From assembly GCA_040882285.1 (NCBI GenBank), contig JBBEBQ010000025.1:124001-188000 (forward strand): a DNA stretch of 64,000 nt, in the 5' to 3' direction. The position numbers were made by a program, and so were the translations under genes. Shown piece after piece: positions 1,851 through 59,541 of the stretch. The notes beneath the pieces are model-generated. The model did not search any database, was not told where the DNA came from, and worked only from the letters and a program-made list of their open reading frames with translations. The stretch comes from Gemmatimonadaceae bacterium. GTDB lineage: Bacteria; Gemmatimonadota; Gemmatimonadetes; Gemmatimonadales; Gemmatimonadaceae. Within the stretch, counting starts at the first letter, position 1; every line of letters starts with the position of its first letter.

Positions 1851-3102
1851 AGCGCGCGCCGCGATCGGCGCGCTGGCCGCGCTCGTCGCCTGCGGGGCGA
1901 CGGCGCTGCCGGATCCGGACCGGCGCGCGCAGGCGGAGCAAGATGGTCCCCCGATTCGAGTCGCGCTGTCTCTGTCCGCGCCCACCGCGACGATCGGCGC
2001 GACGGGCGCATGGCGCGTGTATGCGGCGGACGGGCGAACCCTCCTGTATCGTCCCTCGGCGCGGGACAGCTGGCGCTTCGAGCCCGCCGGCGGCCGCGTG
2101 CGCGGCGCATCGCAGAGCGGCTTCTCCATGCCGGCGCGCAGCGGTGGCGTAGTCCTCCGTCCCGTGGATCCCACCGCGTTCCTGCTGCTCAATCGCAGGC
2201 GCTACCGGGGCGAGATCGTCATCGCGCCCGCGGGAACGGCGCTGCTGGTTGTCAACCGGCTGGGGTTGGAGAGCTATCTACGCGGCGTTGTGCCCCTGGA
2301 GATCGGGCGCCGCGCGCGGTCCGAGCTGGCGGCGATCAAAGCGCAGGCCGTCGTAGCGCGCAGCTATGCGCACACGCGCATCCGGACCTCCGCCGCGCGT
2401 CCCTTTGATCTCGTCGGCACGGTCACCAACCAGGTGTACGGCGGCGCGGACGCGGAGACGGCGCTGACCGACAGCGCGATCGCGTACACGCGCGGGCTCG
2501 TCCTGCACTACGGTCGCCAGCCCGTCGATGCTCCGTACTTCGCCAGCTGCGGCGGAAGCACGGCGGCCGGGGGAGAGCTATTCCCGGGTGGGGATCGCCC
2601 GTACCTGCGGGCGGTGAGCGACAGGATCCCCGGAAGCGACAGCCATTACTGCGACATCTATCCGCGCAAGGAGTGGACGCGCACCATCGAGGCCGCGCAG
2701 GTGAACGCTTCGCTGGAGAAGTACCTGCGCGAGTACATCGCGGGGCTGCGCGGCGGTCCCGGCCGCGCGATAGCGATAGACGAAGCCGGGCGCACGCGGT
2801 CGGGCCGCCTCGAGGCGCTGCGGATCCGCACCGACCGCGGCTCGCACTACCTGCGGGGCAACAGCGCGCGCTTTGTCGTTCGACCGGCGGATGGCGAGAT
2901 TCTGCCCAGTACCTATTTTTCCGCTCAGTCGGTTCGGGCCGCGAACGGCGATCTCATCCGCGTGACCTTCACGGGGCGGGGCAACGGCCACGGCGTAGGC
3001 ATGTGCCAGTGGGGCGCCATCGGCCGTGCGCGCGCCGGCCAGAGCTGGGAGAGCATTCTGCAGACTTATTATCCGGGGACGAGACTGGAGGCATTGTACT
3101 GA
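1843..3102 (+). CDS. SpoIID/LytB-domain secreted protein (putative peptidoglycan lytic enzyme)
   Basis: This 419-residue protein has a SpoIID/LytB domain, a family that includes the sporulation lytic transglycosylase SpoIID but is widespread in non-sporulating bacteria. Seen: a short hydrophobic N-terminus (signal peptide or lipoprotein-like, LVACGATAL); VVPLEIG with the Glu equivalent to the SpoIID catalytic residue near E153; AIKAQAVVARSYA; FASCGGSTAAGGE; and the C-terminal GNGHGVGMCQWGA signature. Start is GTG 1843, overlapping hemL. Activity on glycan strands is inferred from the family. The stop codon is followed at once by repeat element H7-1. Confidence 0.87.
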   Translation: MARARAAIGALAALVACGATALPDPDRRAQAEQDGPPIRVALSLSAPTATIGATGAWRVYAADGRTLLYRPSARDSWRFEPAGGRVRGASQSGFSMPARSGGVVLRPVDPTAFLLLNRRRYRGEIVIAPAGTALLVVNRLGLESYLRGVVPLEIGRRARSELAAIKAQAVVARSYAHTRIRTSAARPFDLVGTVTNQVYGGADAETALTDSAIAYTRGLVLHYGRQPVDAPYFASCGGSTAAGGELFPGGDRPYLRAVSDRIPGSDSHYCDIYPRKEWTRTIEAAQVNASLEKYLREYIAGLRGGPGRAIAIDEAGRTRSGRLEALRIRTDRGSHYLRGNSARFVVRPADGEILPSTYFSAQSVRAANGDLIRVTFTGRGNGHGVGMCQWGAIGRARAGQSWESILQTYYPGTRLEALY

Positions 3103-3103
3103 T

Positions 3104-3199
3104 GGCTATTGGCTATTGGCTGTTGGCTATTGGCCACTGCGGAGCGGCGGGAACCAAGGGGGCTGTTAGCCAAGAGCCAACAGCCAAGAGCCAAAAGCT
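3104..3199. repeat. Heptamer hairpin element H7-1
   Basis: The left arm is four consecutive 7-base words (GGCTATT, GGCTATT, GGCTGTT, GGCTATT) from 3104. The right arm is four AGCCA-centred words at the same 7-base pitch from about 3168 to 3199. The arms are largely complementary around a ~30-base G-rich spacer. The left arm begins one base after the stop of the upstream gene, and the right arm ends 6 bases before the next start codon. Confidence 0.85.
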
Positions 3200-3205
3200 C
3201 CCCGC

Positions 3206-11054: not shown

Positions 11055-11144
11055 CCTGGGTTTCTGGTTTTCGGTCACCAAACAACAGGGATGGGTGAAC
11101 GGTGGTAGGTGTTGGTTGTGGTTAACTGATTGGTTATCGGTAAA

Positions 11145-14781: not shown

Positions 14782-15839
14782 GTCTCCGCGATCGGCTCGC
14801 GGAAGCGCTACAGCGCGCGGCCGAGGTCGAACGGGAGCTGTCCGATCCAAAGACGACCAGGGACCCGCAGCGGTTCGCTTCACTCGGCAGGGAACACCAG
14901 CGGCTCGGCGCCGTAGTCGAGCTGGGCGGTCGAATCGACAAGCTTACGAACGAGCTCGAGCAGGCGCGCGAGCTCGTTTCCGTTGACGACCCCGAGATGG
15001 CCGCCGAGGCGCGCGCGGAAGTGCGCAAGCTCGAAGAACAGCTCGAGGATCTCGAGCGCAAGCTCAAGCCCGTGCTCATCCCGCCCGATCCGCTCGACGA
15101 CCGCCCCGCGATCGTCGAGATCCGCGCCGGCACCGGCGGCGATGAGGCGGCGATCTTCGCCGGCGATCTCTTCCGCATGTACACGCGCTTCGCCGAAGGG
15201 CGCGGATGGAAGATCGAGATGCTGTCGCACTCCGCGGGCACGCACGACGGCGTGAAGGAAGCGATCTTCAAGATCGTCGGGAACGGCGCGTTCGGCGTGA
15301 TGCGCTGGGAGTCCGGCGTGCACCGCGTGCAGCGCGTCCCCGTGACCGAGAGCCAGGGGCGAATCCACACGTCGGCTGCAACAGTCGCCGTACTCCCCGA
15401 AGCCGCTGAAGTGGACGTGAAGATCGAGGAGAAAGACCTGCGGATAGACGTGTTTCGCTCGTCGGGTCCGGGCGGGCAGTCGGTAAACACCACGGACTCC
15501 GCGGTGCGCATCACGCACATCCCGACGGGTATCGTCGTCAGCCAGCAGGACCAGAAGTCGCAGCTCCAGAACAAGCTCAAGGGGATGGAAGTGCTGCGCG
15601 CGCGGCTGCTCGATCTGCGCGTGTCGGAGCAGGAAGCCGAGCGATCGAAGATGCGGAAGACGCAGGTTGGGACCGGCGACCGCTCGGCCAAGATCCGCAC
15701 GTACAACTTCCCGCAGAACCGCGTGACCGACCACCGGATCAACTTCACGCTGCACGAGCTGGATCGCGTGCTGAACGGCGGGATCGAGCCGCTAGTGGAA
15801 GCGCTGGTGGAGGCCGAGGTGGAGGAGAGACTGGGATGA
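14778..15839 (+). CDS. prfA: Peptide chain release factor 1, apparent CTG start
   Basis: RF1 reads UAA/UAG and triggers peptide release. The 353 residues match family length. Present are [38 protein letters not shown] (PVT is the RF1 anticodon-like motif), and [17 protein letters not shown] with the catalytic GGQ. The start is inferred at CTG 14778: it gives the family N-terminus (M)[10 protein letters not shown], overlaps the rpmE stop as CTGA, and is preceded by GGAAGAAGG. No ATG, GTG or TTG occurs in frame between the rpmE stop and about 70 codons downstream. Its stop overlaps the prmC start (ATGA). Confidence 0.95.
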
Positions 15840-16567
15840 CGGCTGGCAGCCAGCAGCTAGCAGCTAGCAGCAAGGGGCTTCAAGCCAATAGCCAACAGCC
15901 AACAGCCAATAGCGAGCGGCCACTTCAATACGCTGAAGGAACGGCGCATTTCCGGCATCTCGAGCTTCAGGTCGACGAGAGAGTGCTGATTCCGCGGCCG
16001 GAGACCGAGGTCGTCGTGGATTGGGCGTTGCGTCTTGCCGGTGCTGGTGGCGGGATCGCCGTCGATATCGGCACGGGCAGCGGGGCGATCGCGCTTTCGC
16101 TGGCGCTGGAGGGGTCGTTCGACCGCGTGATAGCGACCGACGTCTCGGCGGACGCCATCGAGGCCGCCGCGGCCAACCTCGCGCGATTGAGGCCGACTCT
16201 GCGGACGCCCGTCGAGCTCAGGCTGGGCTCGTTTTTGGCGCCCGTGCTGGGGGTAGGCGCGCGGCTCCTGATCTCCAACCCGCCGTACATCGCCGCGGGG
16301 GAGATGCGCGCTCTTCCTGCCAACGTGCGCGGCTGGGAGCCGCCGCTAGCGCTGCTGTCAGGGGAGGACGGAATGGCCGCGACCGCGACTATCATTGAGG
16401 GAGCGCATCGGGTGCTGGCGCAGGGTGGATGGCTGGTGCTGGAGACCGATTCGACGCGCGCGCGGGCCGCGGAAGCGCTGGTCCACGCGGAGGGCCGCTA
16501 TACGGACATAGCCGTTCACTCCGACCTCACCGGCCGCGACCGTGTGCTCGTCGCGCGGCTGCGATAG
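15836..16567 (+). CDS. prmC: Release factor glutamine methyltransferase PrmC, N-terminal domain replaced by repeat-encoded peptide
   Basis: PrmC methylates the glutamine of the GGQ motif in RF1/RF2. The methyltransferase domain is intact: DERVLIPRPETEVVVDW, SAM-binding VDIGTGSGAIALSLA and catalytic NPPY (LISNPPYIAAGEM). The protein is 243 residues, about 35 shorter than E. coli PrmC. The ~70-residue helical N-terminal domain, which contacts the release factor, is absent. After Met-Thr the sequence is AGSQQLAASSKGLQANSQQP, encoded by repeat H7-2, and then joins RPLQYAEGTAHF, the normal domain boundary. The ATG overlaps the prfA stop, so it is the native start site. Confidence 0.9.
   Translation: MTAGSQQLAASSKGLQANSQQPTANSERPLQYAEGTAHFRHLELQVDERVLIPRPETEVVVDWALRLAGAGGGIAVDIGTGSGAIALSLALEGSFDRVIATDVSADAIEAAAANLARLRPTLRTPVELRLGSFLAPVLGVGARLLISNPPYIAAGEMRALPANVRGWEPPLALLSGEDGMAATATIIEGAHRVLAQGGWLVLETDSTRARAAEALVHAEGRYTDIAVHSDLTGRDRVLVARLR
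15841..15914. repeat. Heptamer repeat element H7-2, inside the prmC coding sequence
   Basis: Words at a 7-base pitch: AGCCAGC, AGCTAGC, AGCTAGC on the left (from ~15849), then AGCCAAT, AGCCAAC, AGCCAAC, AGCCAAT on the right (15883-15910). The right run uses the same words as the right arms of H7-1 and H7-9. The two runs are less complementary than in the other elements. It starts two codons into prmC and keeps the frame. Confidence 0.8.
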
Positions 16568-20130: not shown

Positions 20131-20173
20131 GAGCCGGCATCGTCCGCCTTTAGGCTCCGAACCGGGGGCTGGC

Positions 20174-20466
20174 AGAATCCGGGCCGTGAGCCGTGAGCAG
20201 TCAGCTCTCAGCGGTCAGACAACTGAGATTTGGACAGATCTTGCTAGACATCAGTATCAAGTCAACAGGGGAGGTGGAGTACCAACTTCAGCTTGCGCGG
20301 GATTTTGGGCTCGTCTCGGACCGCAACTGGAGATCGCTGGCAGAAGATGCGATCGAAGTACGGCGAATGCTGGTCGGTCTTCGCAAGAAAGTGTTACGGG
20401 ATCTGTCTCAGAAGCAGTTGTCTGACAGCTGACTTCTGACTGCTTCGAGCTCACAGCCCGGATTCC
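20174..20466. repeat. Heptamer hairpin element H7-3, carrying a truncated S23 gene
   Basis: About 290 bp bounded by AGAATCCGGGCCGTGAGC on the left and the reverse complement of GGAATCCGGGCTGTGAGC on the right (16 of 18 matching). Inner arm words (GTGAGCA, GTCAGCT, GGTCAGACAACTG) also pair across the element. It lies between two convergent genes. The termini match those of H7-6 and H7-10. Confidence 0.85.
20193..20432 (+). pseudogene. Truncated four-helix-bundle (S23-type) gene
   Basis: The open frame codes 79 residues. The part STGEVEYQLQLARDFGLVSD and the following helix match the C-terminal half of S23/TIGR02436 proteins; compare SASESDYHLLLARDLGYLAP in the intact copy at 48442-48828. The first two helices (the VWQ and SIPANIAEG regions) are missing. 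The frame begins in the left arm of H7-3 and its stop codon lies in the right arm. It is probably a deletion derivative, although a short protein could still be made. Confidence 0.75.
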
Positions 20467-20490
20467 AGTGAGCCGCGCTCGTGGGGTTGC

Positions 20491-27096: not shown

Positions 27097-28553
27097 GGCT
27101 CCCCTTCGTAAACCCAGTAGGGGCGGCCCGACTCGCGGCCCACGCGCTCGGCTTCCGCGCGCAGGGCGAACGGCCCGGCGATGACGCGGTACACGCGCGT
27201 GCCCGCGGTCTGCGTGGCGACCACTCTGACGGACGAGCTGCGCAAGGATATCTCGCGCGCCGCGGCGATGGCCGCGTCCTCGGAGAGCATCGCGGCGAAC
27301 GACACCGTGTAGCCCACGGGTGCCGGCGGGGGAGGCTGCGGCGCTGGCCGCGGGGCCTGCGGCGCCGGGGCGGAATCCACCGGCGCCGCGGGCCCGATCG
27401 AGTCGAAGCGCAGCGTCTCGGGCTGAGTGAACTCCACCGGCCGGTCGAGCCCGGCGGGGCGCGCGCGGAAGCCGTTCCAGGATGTGAAATACCAGAAATC
27501 CCGACCGCCGCCCTTGATCGTCCGCACGGACTGCAGCGATTCGGGCTCGATGATCTCGACGTCGGCGCCTCGCAGCGTCACCACGGCACCGTCGGGAGCG
27601 ACAGTGGGAAGATCGCTCTTCCACTCGGTCTCGACACTGCCGATGAGCCTGTTGGTGCCGACGGCGATCATCCACGCCGAGTCGCCGGACGCGGGCCGGA
27701 CCAAGAGGTAGCGCCCGAGCGGATCCATGCGCAGCTCGCGGGGCTGCGCGGGCAGCTCGATGGTTTCGGTCAGTCTCCCGTTGTACCTGTCGATGACGCT
27801 CACCACTTCCGCGTCACGGTTGGCCACGTAGATGCGGTCGCCGCTCGGCGTAAGCGCGACGGCGATCACCGGCGAGCGAAAGCGGACGCTGCGCGCGACG
27901 GAGAGGTCGCGGCCGGCCATGCCGATGAGCGCGGTGTCGGTCATGAAGTAAACGCGGTCGCCGATCTGGTTGCGCACGGCGGTCCCGGCGGCCGGAAGGT
28001 ACGCGGTGTCGAGCAACGTCGGGTCGGGGGCGCGCATCCGCCATACCGTGGTGCGCCCGCCCTCGCGCGCCGTGACGATGAGCGAGCCGTCCGGCTGCGG
28101 GATCACGGATCGCGGCGCAGCGGGAGGGGTGAAATCCCAGTCGCCGGCGGGAGTGAACCGGCGGACGCGCGCGCCGTCTACGGCGTAGATCGCGCTGCCG
28201 TCCGCGGAAGAGATGGACGTGAGCTTGCCGCGCGACGCGATGGACACGCGCGAGAGCCGGAGGTCGAGCCGCGCGGGATTTCCGCTCGTCGTCACGAAGG
28301 AGAGCAGCCCGGCTTCCGGATCGAACGCGAGGGTTCGGTCGATCGCGCTTACCGACGGCCCGCGCCACACGACGGAATCGAGCGCGGGATAGACGTACCC
28401 GCGCGCGGCGCCGCCGGTGCGGGGGATTCGGAGCACGATCGGGTCGGGACCGCGCATCGTCCCGTTGGAGCGCTCGGTCGCGGGGCGGGGCTCGCGGTCG
28501 CCGCATGCCGCCACGAGGAGCGCGACGGCCAGGACCGATGTGTGGCTTCTCAA
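27093..28553 (-). CDS. Lipoprotein with beta-propeller and C-terminal SPOR domain
   Basis: A 486-residue lipoprotein: lipobox VALLVAACGDRE. Residues ~40-370 look like a beta-propeller with repeated surface strands (DRVYFMTDTALIGMAGRDLS, DRIYVANRDAEVVSVIDRYN). A proline-rich linker (PQAPRPAPQPPPPAP) follows, then a SPOR domain (YTVSFAAMLSEDAAIAAAREI to YRVIAGPFALRAEAERV). SPOR domains bind denuded septal glycan, so a cell-division or envelope location is likely. It is translationally coupled to the next SPOR-type protein. Upstream lies H7-4. Confidence 0.82.
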   Translation of the reverse strand: MRSHTSVLAVALLVAACGDREPRPATERSNGTMRGPDPIVLRIPRTGGAARGYVYPALDSVVWRGPSVSAIDRTLAFDPEAGLLSFVTTSGNPARLDLRLSRVSIASRGKLTSISSADGSAIYAVDGARVRRFTPAGDWDFTPPAAPRSVIPQPDGSLIVTAREGGRTTVWRMRAPDPTLLDTAYLPAAGTAVRNQIGDRVYFMTDTALIGMAGRDLSVARSVRFRSPVIAVALTPSGDRIYVANRDAEVVSVIDRYNGRLTETIELPAQPRELRMDPLGRYLLVRPASGDSAWMIAVGTNRLIGSVETEWKSDLPTVAPDGAVVTLRGADVEIIEPESLQSVRTIKGGGRDFWYFTSWNGFRARPAGLDRPVEFTQPETLRFDSIGPAAPVDSAPAPQAPRPAPQPPPPAPVGYTVSFAAMLSEDAAIAAAREISLRSSSVRVVATQTAGTRVYRVIAGPFALRAEAERVGRESGRPYWVYEGEP

Positions 28554-28557
28554 AGTG

Positions 28558-28641
28558 CTATTGGCTGTTGGCTGTTAGCTGGTGGCTTGATCCATGAGCC
28601 GACAGCGAAACAAACATTGCCAACAGCCGATAGCCAATAGC
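28558..28641. repeat. Heptamer hairpin element H7-4
   Basis: Left arm GCTATTGGCTGTTGGCTG... (28558-28587) pairs with right arm GCCAACAGCCGATAGCCAAT... (28619-28641); the loop is ~30 bases. The words GGCTATT/GGCTGTT are the same as in H7-1, H7-7 and H7-9. It fills the gap between two genes of the minus-strand operon, ending ~10 bases from the stop at 28652. Confidence 0.85.
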
Positions 28642-32807: not shown

Positions 32808-32936
32808 GTGACTTTATTGGTGACTAGTGACTTGTGACTAGTGACTGGTGACAGGTGGAAAAGACGGAAACGATGGGTTAGGCAGTTTGTGGTTCGTAGT
32901 TACTAGTCACTAGTCACTCGTCACTAGTCACCATTA
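32808..32936. repeat. Heptamer hairpin element H7-5
   Basis: Left arm: GTGACTA, GTGACTT, GTGACTA, GTGACTG, GTGACAG at 7-base pitch (about 32820-32855), preceded by a looser GTGACTTTATTG. Right arm: complementary AGTCACT/AGTCACC words (32898-32933). The loop is ~40 bases. It fills the gap between the DUF2232 gene and rplI. The word family is shared with H7-8. Confidence 0.87.
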
Positions 32937-32941
32937 AAGTG

Positions 32942-48318: not shown

Positions 48319-48856
48319 GGAGCTATTGGCTGTTGGCTATTGGCTATTGGCTAACGACCAACAGCGGTCGTCGCGAGAACTCGAATATTAGTGCAATCAA
48401 ACGATGACGCGGATTCGTCGATCGCTCGAAAACGTGGGCGCATGCAAGACTACCGAAAGCTCCGCGTTTGGCAGGCCGCCCATGCGCTTGTGTTGGGGGT
48501 CTACTCAGCCACCAAGCACTTTCCAACTGCGGAACGGTTCGGGTTAACGGCCCAGTTACGCCGCTCGTGCTGCTCGATCCCCGCGAATATCGCGGAGGGA
48601 GCGATGCGAAGCTCAGATCCTGGCTTCGGCCATTTCCTTCAGATAGCAGCGGCGTCGGCCAGCGAGTCGGACTATCACCTGCTGCTCGCTCGGGACCTTG
48701 GGTACCTCGCACCCGAGGTGCACGAGCAACTCGCCACTGAGCTTCAAGGCCTTCGCCGCGGGATTTCGGCTCTACAGAAATCCCTGAAGAAGAGTCGGTC
48801 AGTCAGTAAAGCAGGAGTGGTTAGCTAATGGCCAATAGCCAACCGCCAATAGCTCC
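48319..48856. repeat. Heptamer hairpin element H7-7 carrying an S23-type gene
   Basis: The left arm 48319-48355 and the right arm 48820-48856 are 37 bases each and complementary in 34. Both start GGAGCTATTGGC and consist of GGCTATT/GGCTGTT words. Between them lies one gene encoding a four-helix-bundle protein. The element spans exactly the gap between the hppA stop (overlapped by the right arm) and the ychF start. A small hairpin CGACC...GGTCG follows the left arm. Confidence 0.9.
48442..48828 (+). CDS. Four-helix-bundle protein (S23 / 23S rRNA intervening-sequence family)
   Basis: A 128-residue protein of the S23/TIGR02436 family, related to proteins encoded in 23S-rRNA intervening sequences and to the Avd accessory protein of diversity-generating retroelements. 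All four helices are present: LRVWQAAHALVLGVYSATKH; GLTAQLRRSCCSIPANIAEG; FLQIAAASASESDYHLLLAR; EVHEQLATELQGLRRGISAL. The biochemical role is unknown, but basic surfaces suggest nucleic-acid binding. The gene is opposite to its neighbours. Its stop codon TAA lies in the right arm of H7-7. ATG 48442 gives the family start (QDYRKLRVW); an earlier in-frame start at 48391 is less likely. Confidence 0.88.
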   Translation: MQDYRKLRVWQAAHALVLGVYSATKHFPTAERFGLTAQLRRSCCSIPANIAEGAMRSSDPGFGHFLQIAAASASESDYHLLLARDLGYLAPEVHEQLATELQGLRRGISALQKSLKKSRSVSKAGVVS

Positions 48857-50931: not shown

Positions 50932-51515
50932 GATTTCTTTTCCCTGTTGTGAACGTTCATCGCCACGTCGACGCCCTCCCTGACCCACAGCTCCACGGCG
51001 TCGGTGAGCCGCGGCAACAACTCGACAATCATATCACCTTCGTCCCGCGCGAACGGCGCGAGCACGAAGCTGGCCAGATCGCGGTAAATGCCGGCCCGCT
51101 CGGGAGACGGCCCCACACCGATCCGCAGCCGCGCATACTCGCGGCTGCCCAGCGCTTCCTCCACGCTCTTCAACCCGTTATGTCCGCCCGCGCTGCCGTG
51201 CGCGCGCAGCCGGTAGCGTCCCACCTGCAGCGCCACTTCGTCGACGACGGCGAGGAGGTCCTTCGAATGGTCCCAGCCGGCCTTGCGGGCGTACGGCCGC
51301 AGCGCGATTCCGCTCAGGTTCATGTACGTCCGCGGCTTCACGAGCCGGACGTGCGTCCGGCCGATCATCCCCGAGGACAGGTACGAGTCCCCGTCCCGCT
51401 TCCACCGGTCGAACCGCCAGACGTCGGCGCAGTGGTCCACTACCCACCAGCCGACGTTGTGCCGGGTGGCCTCGTACTCGCGTCCAGGGTTGCCGAGGCC
51501 GAGGATGACTTTCAC
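50928..51515 (-). CDS. pth: Peptidyl-tRNA hydrolase
   Basis: Releases tRNA from stalled peptidyl-tRNA. The 195 residues include [20 protein letters not shown] (with the active-site His and Asn), [24 protein letters not shown] and [21 protein letters not shown] 51515 begins the family sequence [12 protein letters not shown]7-8 lies ~10 bases upstream and leaves no visible Shine-Dalgarno sequence. It is coupled to hppA. Confidence 0.95.
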
Positions 51516-51524
51516 GGGCTAACG

Positions 51525-51630
51525 GGTGACTAGTGACTCGTGACTAGTGACTAGTAACTGCGAACGGCCAGGAGGTTCGGGCTCGATGGCAGTTCACCAG
51601 TCACTAGTCACTAGTCACCAGTCACCAATG
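51525..51630. repeat. Heptamer hairpin element H7-8
   Basis: Left arm GTGACTA, GTGACTC, GTGACTA, GTGACTA at 7-base pitch (from 51526). Right arm CAGTCAC/TAGTCAC words (51596-51628). The loop is ~40 bases. It fills the whole gap between pth and the rplY stop at 51631. The word family is as in H7-5. Confidence 0.87.
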
Positions 51631-52302
51631 TCACTTCTCCTCTTCCGTCTCTTCCTCTGCTTCCTTGCCGCGGCCGATCACTTCCGGCTCGCCCTCGGCC
51701 TCGCCCTCGACCGGCTCGGCGGCAACGACCGTCTCCTCGACCACGGCGCGCGGCGCGGCGACGACGCAGACAGGCGCCTCGGCGTCGTTGAGAACCTCGA
51801 CGCCCTCGGGAACCTGCAGCTCGCTGACGTGAATCGAGTGACCGATCTGCACCCCGGTGACGTCCACGTCGATGCGATCGGGGATGGACGACGGGTCCAC
51901 GCGGATCGACAGCTCGCGCAGCGTCTGATCCATGACGCCGCCGGATGCGCGCACGCCTTCGGGCACGCCCAGCAGGACGATGGGGATGTTGACCTGCACC
52001 TTCTCGCCGGCGACCAGCTCCTGGAAATCCACGTGCAGGATCTGGCGCTTGAAGGGATGCCGCTGGATCTCGCGGATCAGCGTCTTGGTCGTCTGGCCGT
52101 CGAGCGACAGCTCGATGACGGTGCTCTCGGCGGCGATGTGCGAGAGCAGCTTCTCGAACTCGCGCGTGTCCAGCGTGAGCGCCTGCGGCTCGCGCGCGTG
52201 GCCGTAAACCACGCCGGGAATCCGTCCCGCCGAGCGGAGCGAGCGCGCGGGACCTTTGCCGGAGCCGGTTCGCGGAGTTGCGTGGAGTTGTGCGGTTGCC
52301 AT
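51631..52302 (-). CDS. rplY: 50S ribosomal protein L25/general stress protein Ctc
   Basis: A 223-residue long-form L25 (Ctc/TL5): N-terminal 5S-rRNA-binding domain (SLRSAGRIPGVVYGHAREP, LHVDFQELVAGEKV), the C-terminal TL5 domain (DRIDVDVTGVQIGHSIHVSE), and a very acidic Glu/Lys tail. It follows prs in the minus-strand operon as in many bacteria (prs-rplY-pth). AGAGG lies 7 bases before the ATG, just after the T-run at the end of H7-9. Confidence 0.95.
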   Translation of the reverse strand: MATAQLHATPRTGSGKGPARSLRSAGRIPGVVYGHAREPQALTLDTREFEKLLSHIAAESTVIELSLDGQTTKTLIREIQRHPFKRQILHVDFQELVAGEKVQVNIPIVLLGVPEGVRASGGVMDQTLRELSIRVDPSSIPDRIDVDVTGVQIGHSIHVSELQVPEGVEVLNDAEAPVCVVAAPRAVVEETVVAAEPVEGEAEGEPEVIGRGKEAEEETEEEK

Positions 52303-52314
52303 GATAAAACCTCT

Positions 52315-52413
52315 AAAAAAAGCTGTTAGCTATTGGCTATTGGCTCTTGGTCACGGCGGAAAGGCGGGGTAACGAAGGGGTTACCAACAGCCAACAGCCA
52401 ATAGCCAACAGCC
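52315..52413 (-). terminator. Heptamer hairpin element H7-9 ending in a T-run (terminator-like)
   Basis: Arms of GGCTATT/GGCTGTT/GGCTCTT words at 52322-52350 and complementary words at 52384-52413, with a ~33-base loop that itself contains GTAACGAAGGGGTTAC. Read on the minus strand, the hairpin is followed directly by seven T (52321-52315), the form of an intrinsic terminator. It lies between prs and rplY, so it could terminate or attenuate. Confidence 0.7.
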
Positions 52414-52419
52414 CAGTTA

Positions 52420-53373
52420 TCAGTCGAACAACGAGCTCACCGATTGCTCGGAATGAATGAACCTCACCGCCTTGGACAACAGCTCGCCCACGGACAGCAC
52501 TGTCAGCGTGTCGAACTTCGACTCTTCCCGGATGGCGATCGTGTCCGTGACCACCACTTCCTTGATCGGAGCGCCGCTGAGCCGCTCCTTCGCCGGTCCC
52601 GACAGAAGCGCGTGCGTCGCACAGACGTACACGTCACCCGCTCCCAGCTCCTTCAACGCGCGCGCGGCCTCCGAGACCGTGCCCGCGGTGTCGATCATGT
52701 CGTCCGCCAGAATACAATCGCGCCCTTCCACTTCGCCGACGACGTTCACGACCTCCGACACGTTCGCCCGGGGGCGGCGCTTGTCGATGATCGCCAACGT
52801 CCCGTCCAGCCGCTTCGCGAAACCGCGCGCCATCTTCGCCGAGCCTACGTCCGGCGCCACCACCACCACGTCGTGCAGATTCTTCCGCTTGAAGTGCGAG
52901 ACGAACACCGGCGCCGCGTACAGATGGTCCACCGGAACGTCGAAGAACCCCTGCAGCTGGTGCTGGTGGAAGTCGACCCCCAGCAGCCTGTCCGCACCGG
53001 CCGTCATGATCATGTTCGCCACGAGCTTCGCGCCGATCGCCACCCGCGGCTGGTCCTTGCGATCCTGCCGCGAGTAGCCGTAGTACGGCATCACGCAGGT
53101 CACCCGCGCCGCCGATGCGCGCTTCGCCGCGTCGATCAGCAGCAGAAGCTCCATCAGGTTGTCCGCGGGAGGGTTCGTCGGCTGAACGATGAAAACGTCG
53201 TTGCCCCGCACGTTCTCGTCGATCCGCACGAACAGCTCGCCATCGGCAAAGCGGCTCAGCGTGACCTTGCACAGCTCCAGCCCGAGCTGCGACGCCATCT
53301 CTTCGGCCAGCGCACGATTGGCAGAGCCGCTCATGAGCTTGAAGCCGTGACTAGGTACGGCCAATCCGTCCAT
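52420..53373 (-). CDS. prs: Ribose-phosphate pyrophosphokinase
   Basis: Makes PRPP from ribose-5-phosphate and ATP for nucleotide, His and Trp synthesis. 317 residues from ATG 53373; a GTG at 53379 would add two. Landmarks: KLMSGSANRALAEEMA, RFADGELFVRIDENVRG, YYGYSRQDRKDQPR (flexible ATP loop) and the PRPP site DCILADDMIDTAGT. AGGG lies 9 bases upstream of ATG 53373, which favours that start. It lies downstream of ispE and tRNA-Gln. Confidence 0.95.
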   Translation of the reverse strand: MDGLAVPSHGFKLMSGSANRALAEEMASQLGLELCKVTLSRFADGELFVRIDENVRGNDVFIVQPTNPPADNLMELLLLIDAAKRASAARVTCVMPYYGYSRQDRKDQPRVAIGAKLVANMIMTAGADRLLGVDFHQHQLQGFFDVPVDHLYAAPVFVSHFKRKNLHDVVVVAPDVGSAKMARGFAKRLDGTLAIIDKRRPRANVSEVVNVVGEVEGRDCILADDMIDTAGTVSEAARALKELGAGDVYVCATHALLSGPAKERLSGAPIKEVVVTDTIAIREESKFDTLTVLSVGELLSKAVRFIHSEQSVSSLFD

Positions 53374-58491: not shown

Positions 58492-59312
58492 CGGGTCGGC
58501 TCTATCTCGTCAGCACGCCGATCGGAAACCTCGGCGACATCTCCTTTCGCGCCGTCGAGGTCCTCCGGTCCGTCGCCGTCATCCTGGCGGAGGACACGCG
58601 CCACTCCCGCCGGCTGCTTGACCATTACGAAGTAGCGACACCCACCAGCGCGTACCACGAGCACAATGAGGCGCGGGCCACCCCGAAGATTCTCGAGCGG
58701 CTGGCCGCGGGCCAGGACGTAGCGCTCATCTCGGACGCGGGCACGCCGCTGCTGTCGGATCCCGGCGCGCGGCTCGTGGCCGATGCGATCGAAGCGGGTT
58801 TCGATGTCGTGCCGGTCCCCGGCGCATCAGCGCTGCTGGCGGCGCTGGCGGGCGCCGGTCTCGGCGCCGAGCGATTCACTTTCTTCGGATTTCTGGAGCG
58901 GCGCGGACGCGCGCGCGCCGAGGCCATCGCCGAGATCGCCGCGACGCCGCACACGTGCGTGCTGTACGAGGCGCCGGGTCGAGTCGGGGCGACACTGCGG
59001 AACCTGGTCGAGGCGGGGATGGGCGAGCGGACGTGCGCGGTGGCGCGGGAGCTGACGAAGAAGTTCGAGGAGTTCAGGCGGGGGACGGTCGCCGGGTTGG
59101 CGGAGCACTACGGAGATGAGGGACCAAGGGGAGAGGTCGTCATCGTCCTCGGCCCAAAGGCGGAAGAGCAGGTAGACGAGGACGAGCTGCGAAAGCACGC
59201 GGATGCGCTGCGGGACGAGGGAAAGACGCCGCGGGAGATCGTGGCCGGGTTGATCGCGATGGGGGCGTCACGGAACCTTGCGTACAGATTGGGCCACGAA
59301 CGAGCTCCATGA
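58488..59312 (+). CDS. rsmI: 16S rRNA (cytidine-1402-2'-O)-methyltransferase, apparent ATA start
   Basis: RsmI 2'-O-methylates C1402 of 16S rRNA. 274 residues: AGRLYLVSTPIGNLGDISFR, AEDTRHSRRLL, ISDAGTPLLSDPGARLV, VPVPGASALLAALAG and FFGFLERRGRAR, all typical. The start is inferred at ATA 58488: it gives (M)AGRLYLV, overlaps the trxA TAG as ATAG, and lies 8 bases after AAGGAG. The next in-frame start codons lie well into the conserved domain, and there is none upstream short of the middle of trxA. Confidence 0.93.
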   Translation: MAGRLYLVSTPIGNLGDISFRAVEVLRSVAVILAEDTRHSRRLLDHYEVATPTSAYHEHNEARATPKILERLAAGQDVALISDAGTPLLSDPGARLVADAIEAGFDVVPVPGASALLAALAGAGLGAERFTFFGFLERRGRARAEAIAEIAATPHTCVLYEAPGRVGATLRNLVEAGMGERTCAVARELTKKFEEFRRGTVAGLAEHYGDEGPRGEVVIVLGPKAEEQVDEDELRKHADALRDEGKTPREIVAGLIAMGASRNLAYRLGHERAP

Positions 59313-59323
59313 ATATTCCAGAC

Positions 59324-59481
59324 GGAATCCAGGCCGTGAGCAGTGAGCGATTAGCTGTCAGCTATCAGGCAACTGACATTCGGACGTGTCGTTGCATTTC
59401 GCCGGCAAAATCCCTTGCCCGTCCAAATCGAGTTGCCTGACGGCTGACAGCTGAATGCTCGAAGCTCACGGCCTGGATTCC
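59324..59481. repeat. Heptamer-type hairpin element H7-10 (no gene inside)
   Basis: 158 bp with exactly complementary 18-base ends GGAATCCAGGCCGTGAGC. The next ~35 bases of each arm also pair (GCTGTCAGCT, CAGGCAACT). The loop is ~40 bases and holds no gene. The ends and the ATTTGGACGGGCAAGG stretch beside the arm match H7-3, so it looks like a short derivative of that element. The rest of the 59313-59563 gap holds only the tandem repeat below. Confidence 0.88.
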
Positions 59482-59489
59482 GCCTGATT

Positions 59490-59541
59490 CTCGCTCGGAC
59501 CATCCGGCTCGCTCGGACCATCCGGCTCGCTCGGACCATCC
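59490..59541 (+). repeat. Three tandem 18-bp repeats upstream of the FAH-family gene
   Basis: CTCGCTCGGACCATCCGG occurs at 59490-59507 and 59508-59525, then a third copy, changed in its last bases, from 59526. It ends ~22 bases before the ATG at 59564. It could be a repeated protein-binding site or simple slippage. Confidence 0.85.

Follow-up and report, generated by a model that had tools for sequence, protein, structure and literature searches.

Intervening sequences (IVSs) of 23S rRNA in Coxiella and Leptospira consist of inverted repeats that enclose an S23 open reading frame and form a long stem (PMC4990558); S23 genes within the inverted repeats of rRNA IVSs are therefore already known. 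Tandem heptamers (GACAGAT) lie upstream of the frame in the Coxiella IVS, frames decay by deletion, the Coxiella element is cut by RNase III, and mobility of IVSs has been raised only as a hypothesis (PMC4990558). The S23 protein of Xanthomonas campestris is a homopentamer of four-helix bundles (PMC4990558), and the DGR accessory protein Avd, likewise a four-helix bundle, is a homolog of the S23 family (PMC10053308). REPINs are dispersed intergenic inverted doublets that form hairpins. A genome has several families of them, and each seems to be linked to a master that encodes a protein, the RAYT, and is flanked by the same repeat (PMC3116915). Tandem intergenic 7-nt repeats, for example TAACTGA in Beggiatoaceae and cyanobacteria, are distributed patchily across phyla and have no known mechanism (PMC4679880). 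MITEs are short, non-autonomous units with inverted repeats that are related, through internal deletion, to a parent which carries a gene. To our knowledge, S23 (PF05635/TIGR02436) is a widespread family to which no function has been assigned and which has no known catalytic site. The open-access literature that was searched, with subscription papers outside its scope, contained no description of S23-heptamer elements that lie outside rRNA, nor of the satellites of such elements.

The elements described here, which came to light in a window of 64,000 nucleotides from a Gemmatimonadaceae genome, resemble each of these systems in part. Unlike rRNA IVSs they are intergenic, exist in many copies per genome with different words, are accompanied by satellites that lack S23, and encode an S23 protein under purifying selection. 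They differ from REPIN-RAYT systems in that S23 replaces the Y1 transposase, the arms are arrays of 7-nt words and the gene is inside the hairpin, and from MITEs in that neither a target-site duplication nor a parent transposase was seen, and the sites are old, with words that change in situ. The TAACTGA-type heptamers are direct repeats, only very rarely inverted, and their description does not refer to S23 (PMC4679880); a link between them and S23 elements is only suggested. In contrast to DGRs, the genome that contains the window (G000) has no reverse transcriptase match (PF00078).

The segment 20167-20474 of the window is a decayed S23 element, that is, a hairpin unit with an S23 gene in its loop that has been cut in place to the C-terminal half (Table 1). 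It is located between a DUF2520 gene and lolA, names that were read from translations rather than from profile searches. The 79-aa product of the frame at 20193-20432 (+ strand) matched TIGR02436 with an E value of 2.3e-8 (34.2 bits against a cut-off of 24), residues 18-67 aligning with positions 58-108 of the 109 in the profile. PF05635 matched the same product at 2.8e-7 (31.1 bits, positions 62-105 of 106), just under the cut-off of 33.8 because only positions 62-105 are left. As these are the profile positions that were matched, the product is the C-terminal half of an S23 (23S-rRNA-intervening-sequence, four-helix-bundle) protein. The initial annotation had proposed from the letters alone that a second heptamer element encloses only this half, and the profile search which it recommended returned a match above cut-off rather than the absence of S23. 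The fragment (profile 58-108 only) is not a complete four-helix bundle and the open frame is probably a pseudogene remnant without the first half of the bundle. The arms are 77% complementary across 66 nt (20175-20240 and 20400-20465), and the inverted repeat can be traced outward by eye through GGCTGGCAGAATCC (from 20167) and GGATTCCAGTGAGCC (to 20474); the RNA is predicted to fold into one long stem (z = -7.35). The left arm is homologous to the arms of a full-length element at the same site in the sister species G001 and to dispersed copies that lack S23. Its words are of the (NN)TCAGC/(NN)TGAGC type, distinct, as had been noted, from the GCTATTG-type words of H7-7, the full-length S23 element of the window.

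Table 1. Heptamer elements of the window and their parts (window positions).
Feature	Position	Strand	Evidence and remarks
Left arm	20167..20240	.	GGCTGGCAGAATCCGGGCCGTGAGC..., (NN)TGAGC/(NN)TCAGC heptamers, end ...ACAACTGAGATTTGGACAGAT; inverted repeat with right arm
Open frame through the fragment, GTG (left arm) to TGA (right arm)	20193..20432	+	
S23 C-terminal half, profile 58-108/109, N-terminal half deleted	20244..20393	+	TIGR02436, PF05635, sister-species orthologs
Right arm, inverted copy of left arm	20400..20474	.	...CAGTTGTCTGACAGC...GGATTCCAGTGAGCC; inverted repeat, fold
H7-7, full-length S23 element, GCTATTG arms	48319..48856	+	PF05635 7.8e-33; arms 90% complementary; orthologs L017, L044
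S23-less GGAATCC-family satellite, ~160 bp hairpin	59324..59482 (hairpin 59304-59486)	.	Model R1 159.5 bits; ortholog in G001
S23-less GCTATTG hairpin	3094..3205	.	
S23-less hairpin, GCTAGCA/GCCAACA words	15832..15924	.	GGTATCA-type stretch at site in G002
S23-less GCTATTG hairpin	28551..28640	.	GGGATGCAAGCTGTGAG element at site in G002
S23-less TAGTGAC hairpin	32811..32940	.	Other words at site: TAGTGAT in G001, GTATTAG in G002, GTATCAG in G003
S23-less TAGTGAC hairpin	51514..51639	.	TAGTGAT in G001, GTATCAG in G002 and G003
S23-less GCTATTG hairpin	52316..52424	.	Absent in G002

The frame of the decayed element begins with GTG at 20193 within the left arm and ends with TGA at 20430-20432 within the right arm. 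The initial annotation regarded this placement as a property of H7-7 too. The comparison holds for the stop, as the TAA of H7-7 (48826-48828) is in its right arm, and fails for the start, since the ATG (48442, followed by the conserved MQDYRKL) is situated 84 nt inward of the left arm. Thus, the start codon of full-length S23 genes lies outside the arm, and the start within the arm at 20193 is a result of deletion instead of a feature common to the two elements. The S23 gene of H7-7 is antiparallel to both neighboring genes. Its protein gave a weak NCBIfam match to Avd (E 0.0029), far below the cut-off.

The DUF2520/lolA gap was compared in three sister species. A full-length S23 element with the same type of arm (GGAATCCAGGCCGTGAGC...GCTCACGGCCTGGATTCC) occupies the gap in G001 (L078), and a full-length element with GGGATGCAGGCTGTGAG arms is present in G002 (L060). 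In G003 the contig begins inside S23, and the second half of the gene and the right arm are visible (L101). The window copy retains the left arm up to GATTTGGACAGATC and continues with S23 from approximately profile position 58. Because the site has a full-length gene in G001 and G002, and no less than the second half of one in G003, the window copy is an in-place internal deletion of an S23 element, and the description of its gene as truncated is apt. The fragment has 76% identity to the G003 protein versus 65% to that of G001, whereas for the flanks G001 is the nearest species; this site's element therefore has a history of its own. Full-length relatives with GGAATCC-type ends, which the initial annotation had suggested looking for, comprise L078 and, in the same genome as the window, L007 (G000:C5:295025) with CCGGAATCC ends. 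A second decayed S23 gene, L153 (G002:C12:2400-3300), occurs at the H7-7 site in G002. There S23 is down to its first codons, which are followed by a near-perfect inverted repeat of ~70 bp (AGGACTAACCGCCATTGAGGATC...) that is unlike the arms in other species. Elsewhere in the window, positions 11085-11135 resemble an arm of the G002 S23 element L085 (GGGATGGGT..ACTGATTGGT, score 68), and thus the window also contains members of another word family.

Runs of period 7 were found at 218 window positions compared with 0-14 for periods 5, 6 and 8-11, which bears out the earlier view that a chance association of heptamer arms with S23 is unlikely. Rather than being independent inventions, as had been supposed, the two enclosures belong to a single kind of element, and the link between repeat and gene family extends far beyond two cases. 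PF05635 matched ten times in the 2.89-Mb genome G000 and at least once in 49 of 60 relatives, and heptamer-type arms were recognized by eye at every full-length S23 locus fetched from G000. Among the 93 S23 loci of the genus and relatives with enough flank, 84 possessed inverted arms scoring above the 99% level of a null distribution in which upstream and downstream flanks were mispaired (median score 61 versus 22). Arm words vary between loci and agree within each locus. Period 7 characterized 43% of the S23 loci of relatives (at least 20/28), other periods 0-12%, and a few loci appear to have period 8. The pattern recurs in other phyla (Chloroflexi, Nitrospirota, Cyanobacteria, Acidobacteria, Bacteroidetes, Planctomycetes, Poribacteria, CPR and others): period-7 arrays accompanied 57 of 73 S23 loci, which were the best-scoring ones and not a random sample, compared with 0-2 for other periods and none for shuffled flanks. 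Inverted arms were detected at p≤0.01 relative to the locus's own shuffles in 54 of the 73, and at none of 24 control genes from the window. The contig scan for S23 used the narrow alignment A2, and the set was restricted to S23 proteins with the motif (S/T)(I/V)P(A/T)NIAEG. An S23 gene between inverted arms of 7-nt (sometimes 8-nt) words is the usual S23 setting in the genus and in many phyla. Two loci have long, nearly identical inverted arms that are not heptamer arrays, L091 in G033 (~220 nt) and L093 in G022 (~137 nt); period 7 is therefore not obligatory. The density of period-7 arrays tracked S23 number in 21 sampled genomes (rs 0.63, p 0.002; rs 0.57, p 0.009 without G000), relatives being sampled as 20-kb stretches from 20 relatives. 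Other periods did not follow S23 number, and the genomes in this sample that lack S23 have almost no period-7 arrays. Overall, the occurrence of S23 genes between mirrored 7-letter repeats in many phyla suggests a poorly recognized kind of selfish repeat element.

Purifying selection acts on S23 as a protein, with dN/dS of 0.05-0.17 in ortholog pairs. The nearest solved structure is that of XCC0516 (2GSC). PF05635 matches also occur within frames of 538 and 617 aa (G018:C2:4973452 and G026:C3:65950, respectively), which may be S23 fusions or read-through frames. S23 relatives were located on 25 plasmid records, mostly cyanobacterial (Nostoc, Calothrix, Pseudanabaena), ten of which are predicted to be conjugative, a possible route of transfer; phages gave no S23 match at E≤1e-5.

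Hairpins with these arms but no S23 gene are dispersed through the same genomes. The GGAATCC family numbers 11, 20 and 19 copies in G000, G001 and G003, respectively, counted at ~88 bits or more with strands merged by hand, and none above ~51 bits in G002. Across 16 of its S23-less copies the hairpin is conserved, with changes on both sides at 13 of 40 pairs, and the window member at 59324 has a fold z of -12.9. A perfect 18-bp tandem repeat (2.9 copies, 59490-59541) directly adjoins this hairpin. The TAGTGAC family has 117 matches in G000, and the GCTATTG pattern has 311, 106, 28 and 286 overlapping matches in G000, G001, G002 and G003, respectively, compared with none for a reversed-pattern control.

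At seven window sites the corresponding position in the sister species is mostly occupied by a hairpin as well, often one of a different word, as at 51514 and 32811 (Table 1). Between G000 and G001 the interiors of these two hairpins are 76-79% identical and their flanks 95-97%, whereas at 52316, 28551 and 59304 the interior is conserved as well as the flanks. The proposal that 32811 is an empty site in G002 and G003 was rejected, as these species have other heptamer hairpins there. Where other species have GGAATCC, G002 has a GGGATGC version, namely at 59304, at the satellite sites L107 and L108, and at the S23 site. The GGGATGCARGCTGTGAG version is present at the S23 master and ~10 other loci in G002, at none in G001 or G003, and in one element in G000. 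A single GGGATGCAAGCTATGAG hairpin in G000 (L245, G000:C7:32178-32271) has a version that otherwise is confined to G002 and is either a stray copy or a remnant. Word families thus change by lineage and in concert, the S23-bearing copy included, with old sites and young words. A strict rule that the satellite word equals that of the orthologous master was rejected, as it fails for TAGTGAC in G002. The TAGTGAC S23 element L001 has an ortholog in G002, L015, with arms that read ATCAGTG and differ from the GTATCAG and GTATTAG hairpins of G002 at 51514 and 32811; word matching by the master is therefore imperfect in this sample.

Two species have a broken S23 element. G000, in which the GGAATCC master is broken, has about half of the copies of that family that G001 and G003 have (11 versus 19-20), and G002, in which the GCTATTG master (L153) is broken, has the fewest GCTATTG matches (28 versus 106-311). 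These numbers, which come from one species each and from draft genomes, that of G002 being 89% complete, fit a dependence of satellites on their master. GCTATTG arrays nevertheless remain in G002, where the H7-7 site has no intact GCTATTG S23 gene. Five of six G001 satellite sites examined have no element in G000, two of them with clear remnants. A clean new insertion with target duplication was not found at the six G001 sites compared, which are mostly deletion products at old sites. A recent transposition of GGAATCC elements into G001 was discarded: several 'empty' G000 sites look deleted while other species are occupied, and therefore loss in G000 fits better. The junction of L109 with G000 accommodates both a 5-bp duplication and a deletion between ATTCC repeats. 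The flanks GGCTCC...GGAATATTCC...GGAGCC form a candidate target palindrome; at L326, where G000 keeps it without the core, insertion and deletion are equivalent in sequence.

The interpretation that we favor, with a probability of about 0.6 and by analogy with RAYTs and REPINs, is that of S23 elements as selfish masters, the protein of which would act on heptamer hairpins and maintain satellites. The S23 protein, a homopentameric four-helix bundle related to Avd, would recognize the hairpin of its own word, as DNA or RNA, and promote copying or replacement of hairpins, with the chemistry performed either by S23 itself or by recruited host enzymes (replication, RNase III, recombination). S23 elements would be autonomous masters and the S23-less hairpins their satellites, the system working like a RAYT with its REPINs in which S23 takes the place of the Y1 transposase. 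When a master is broken, as in the window, renewal of its satellites would cease and deletions at short repeats would remove them. Arms mostly hold 3-5 heptamer units, beside which S23 is a pentamer. A bolder extension, possible although we would not back it at present, is that S23 proteins are mobility or homing factors of bacteria-wide hairpin replicators, reading 7-nt arrays and rewriting fixed intergenic hairpins, and that rRNA IVSs are S23 elements that landed in rRNA.

The anatomy of rRNA IVSs, an S23 frame between stem-forming inverted repeats, is identical to that seen here, and this, along with the tandem heptamers and RNase III cleavage in Coxiella (PMC4990558) and the strong predicted RNA folds, invites a reading in which the element is an IVS-like RNA: a transcribed long stem with the S23 message in its loop, cut by RNase III and spread via RNA-derived or recombining copies, with S23 protecting or chaperoning the RNA. 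That reading is unlikely. Neither the window nor any of 20 S23 loci checked contains rRNA, G000 has no reverse transcriptase, and the S23 gene of H7-7 opposes both neighbors, which leaves S23-sense transcription putative. The excess of sense-strand wobble pairs expected if only the S23-strand RNA hairpin mattered was weak in relatives (p 0.011) and absent in other phyla. Alternatively, an unrecognized transposase might move the hairpins in trans, S23 being an accessory or addiction-type gene. The want of a known catalytic site in S23 would accord with such a role, as would the fact that its relative Avd is a reverse transcriptase accessory factor (PMC10053308). Yet reverse transcriptase and RAYT were both rejected as mobilizers, as G000 has no match to PF00078 or to the Y1 transposase profile PF01797, the latter search being positive in 5 of 14 control genomes, and S23 is the protein found repeatedly inside such arms across phyla; we consider this alternative improbable. 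Since its own genome has neither reverse transcriptase nor RAYT, the best candidate for the role of acting protein is S23.

The intergenic location of the hairpins, and their retention at the same sites across species while words change, also could be expected of host features such as 3'-end stabilizers or terminators into which S23 genes insert as passengers. However, hairpins occupy gaps of all gene orientations and not just convergent ends, on which ground the idea of a convergent-gene terminator was dismissed, and genomes without S23 are nearly devoid of period-7 arrays. Furthermore, the S23-bearing copy and the S23-less copies have common lineage-specific versions, which passengers need not have. 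There is accordingly little to commend the view of S23 genes as passengers.

The location of S23 genes within heptamer-built hairpins across phyla, together with the surrounding satellites of the same word, provides the S23 family with a candidate natural substrate. Both the function of S23 and the mobility of IVSs become testable, through the binding of S23 to its own word compared with a foreign one. The window copy offers a natural knockout, which allows a species whose master is broken to be compared with sister species that keep it.
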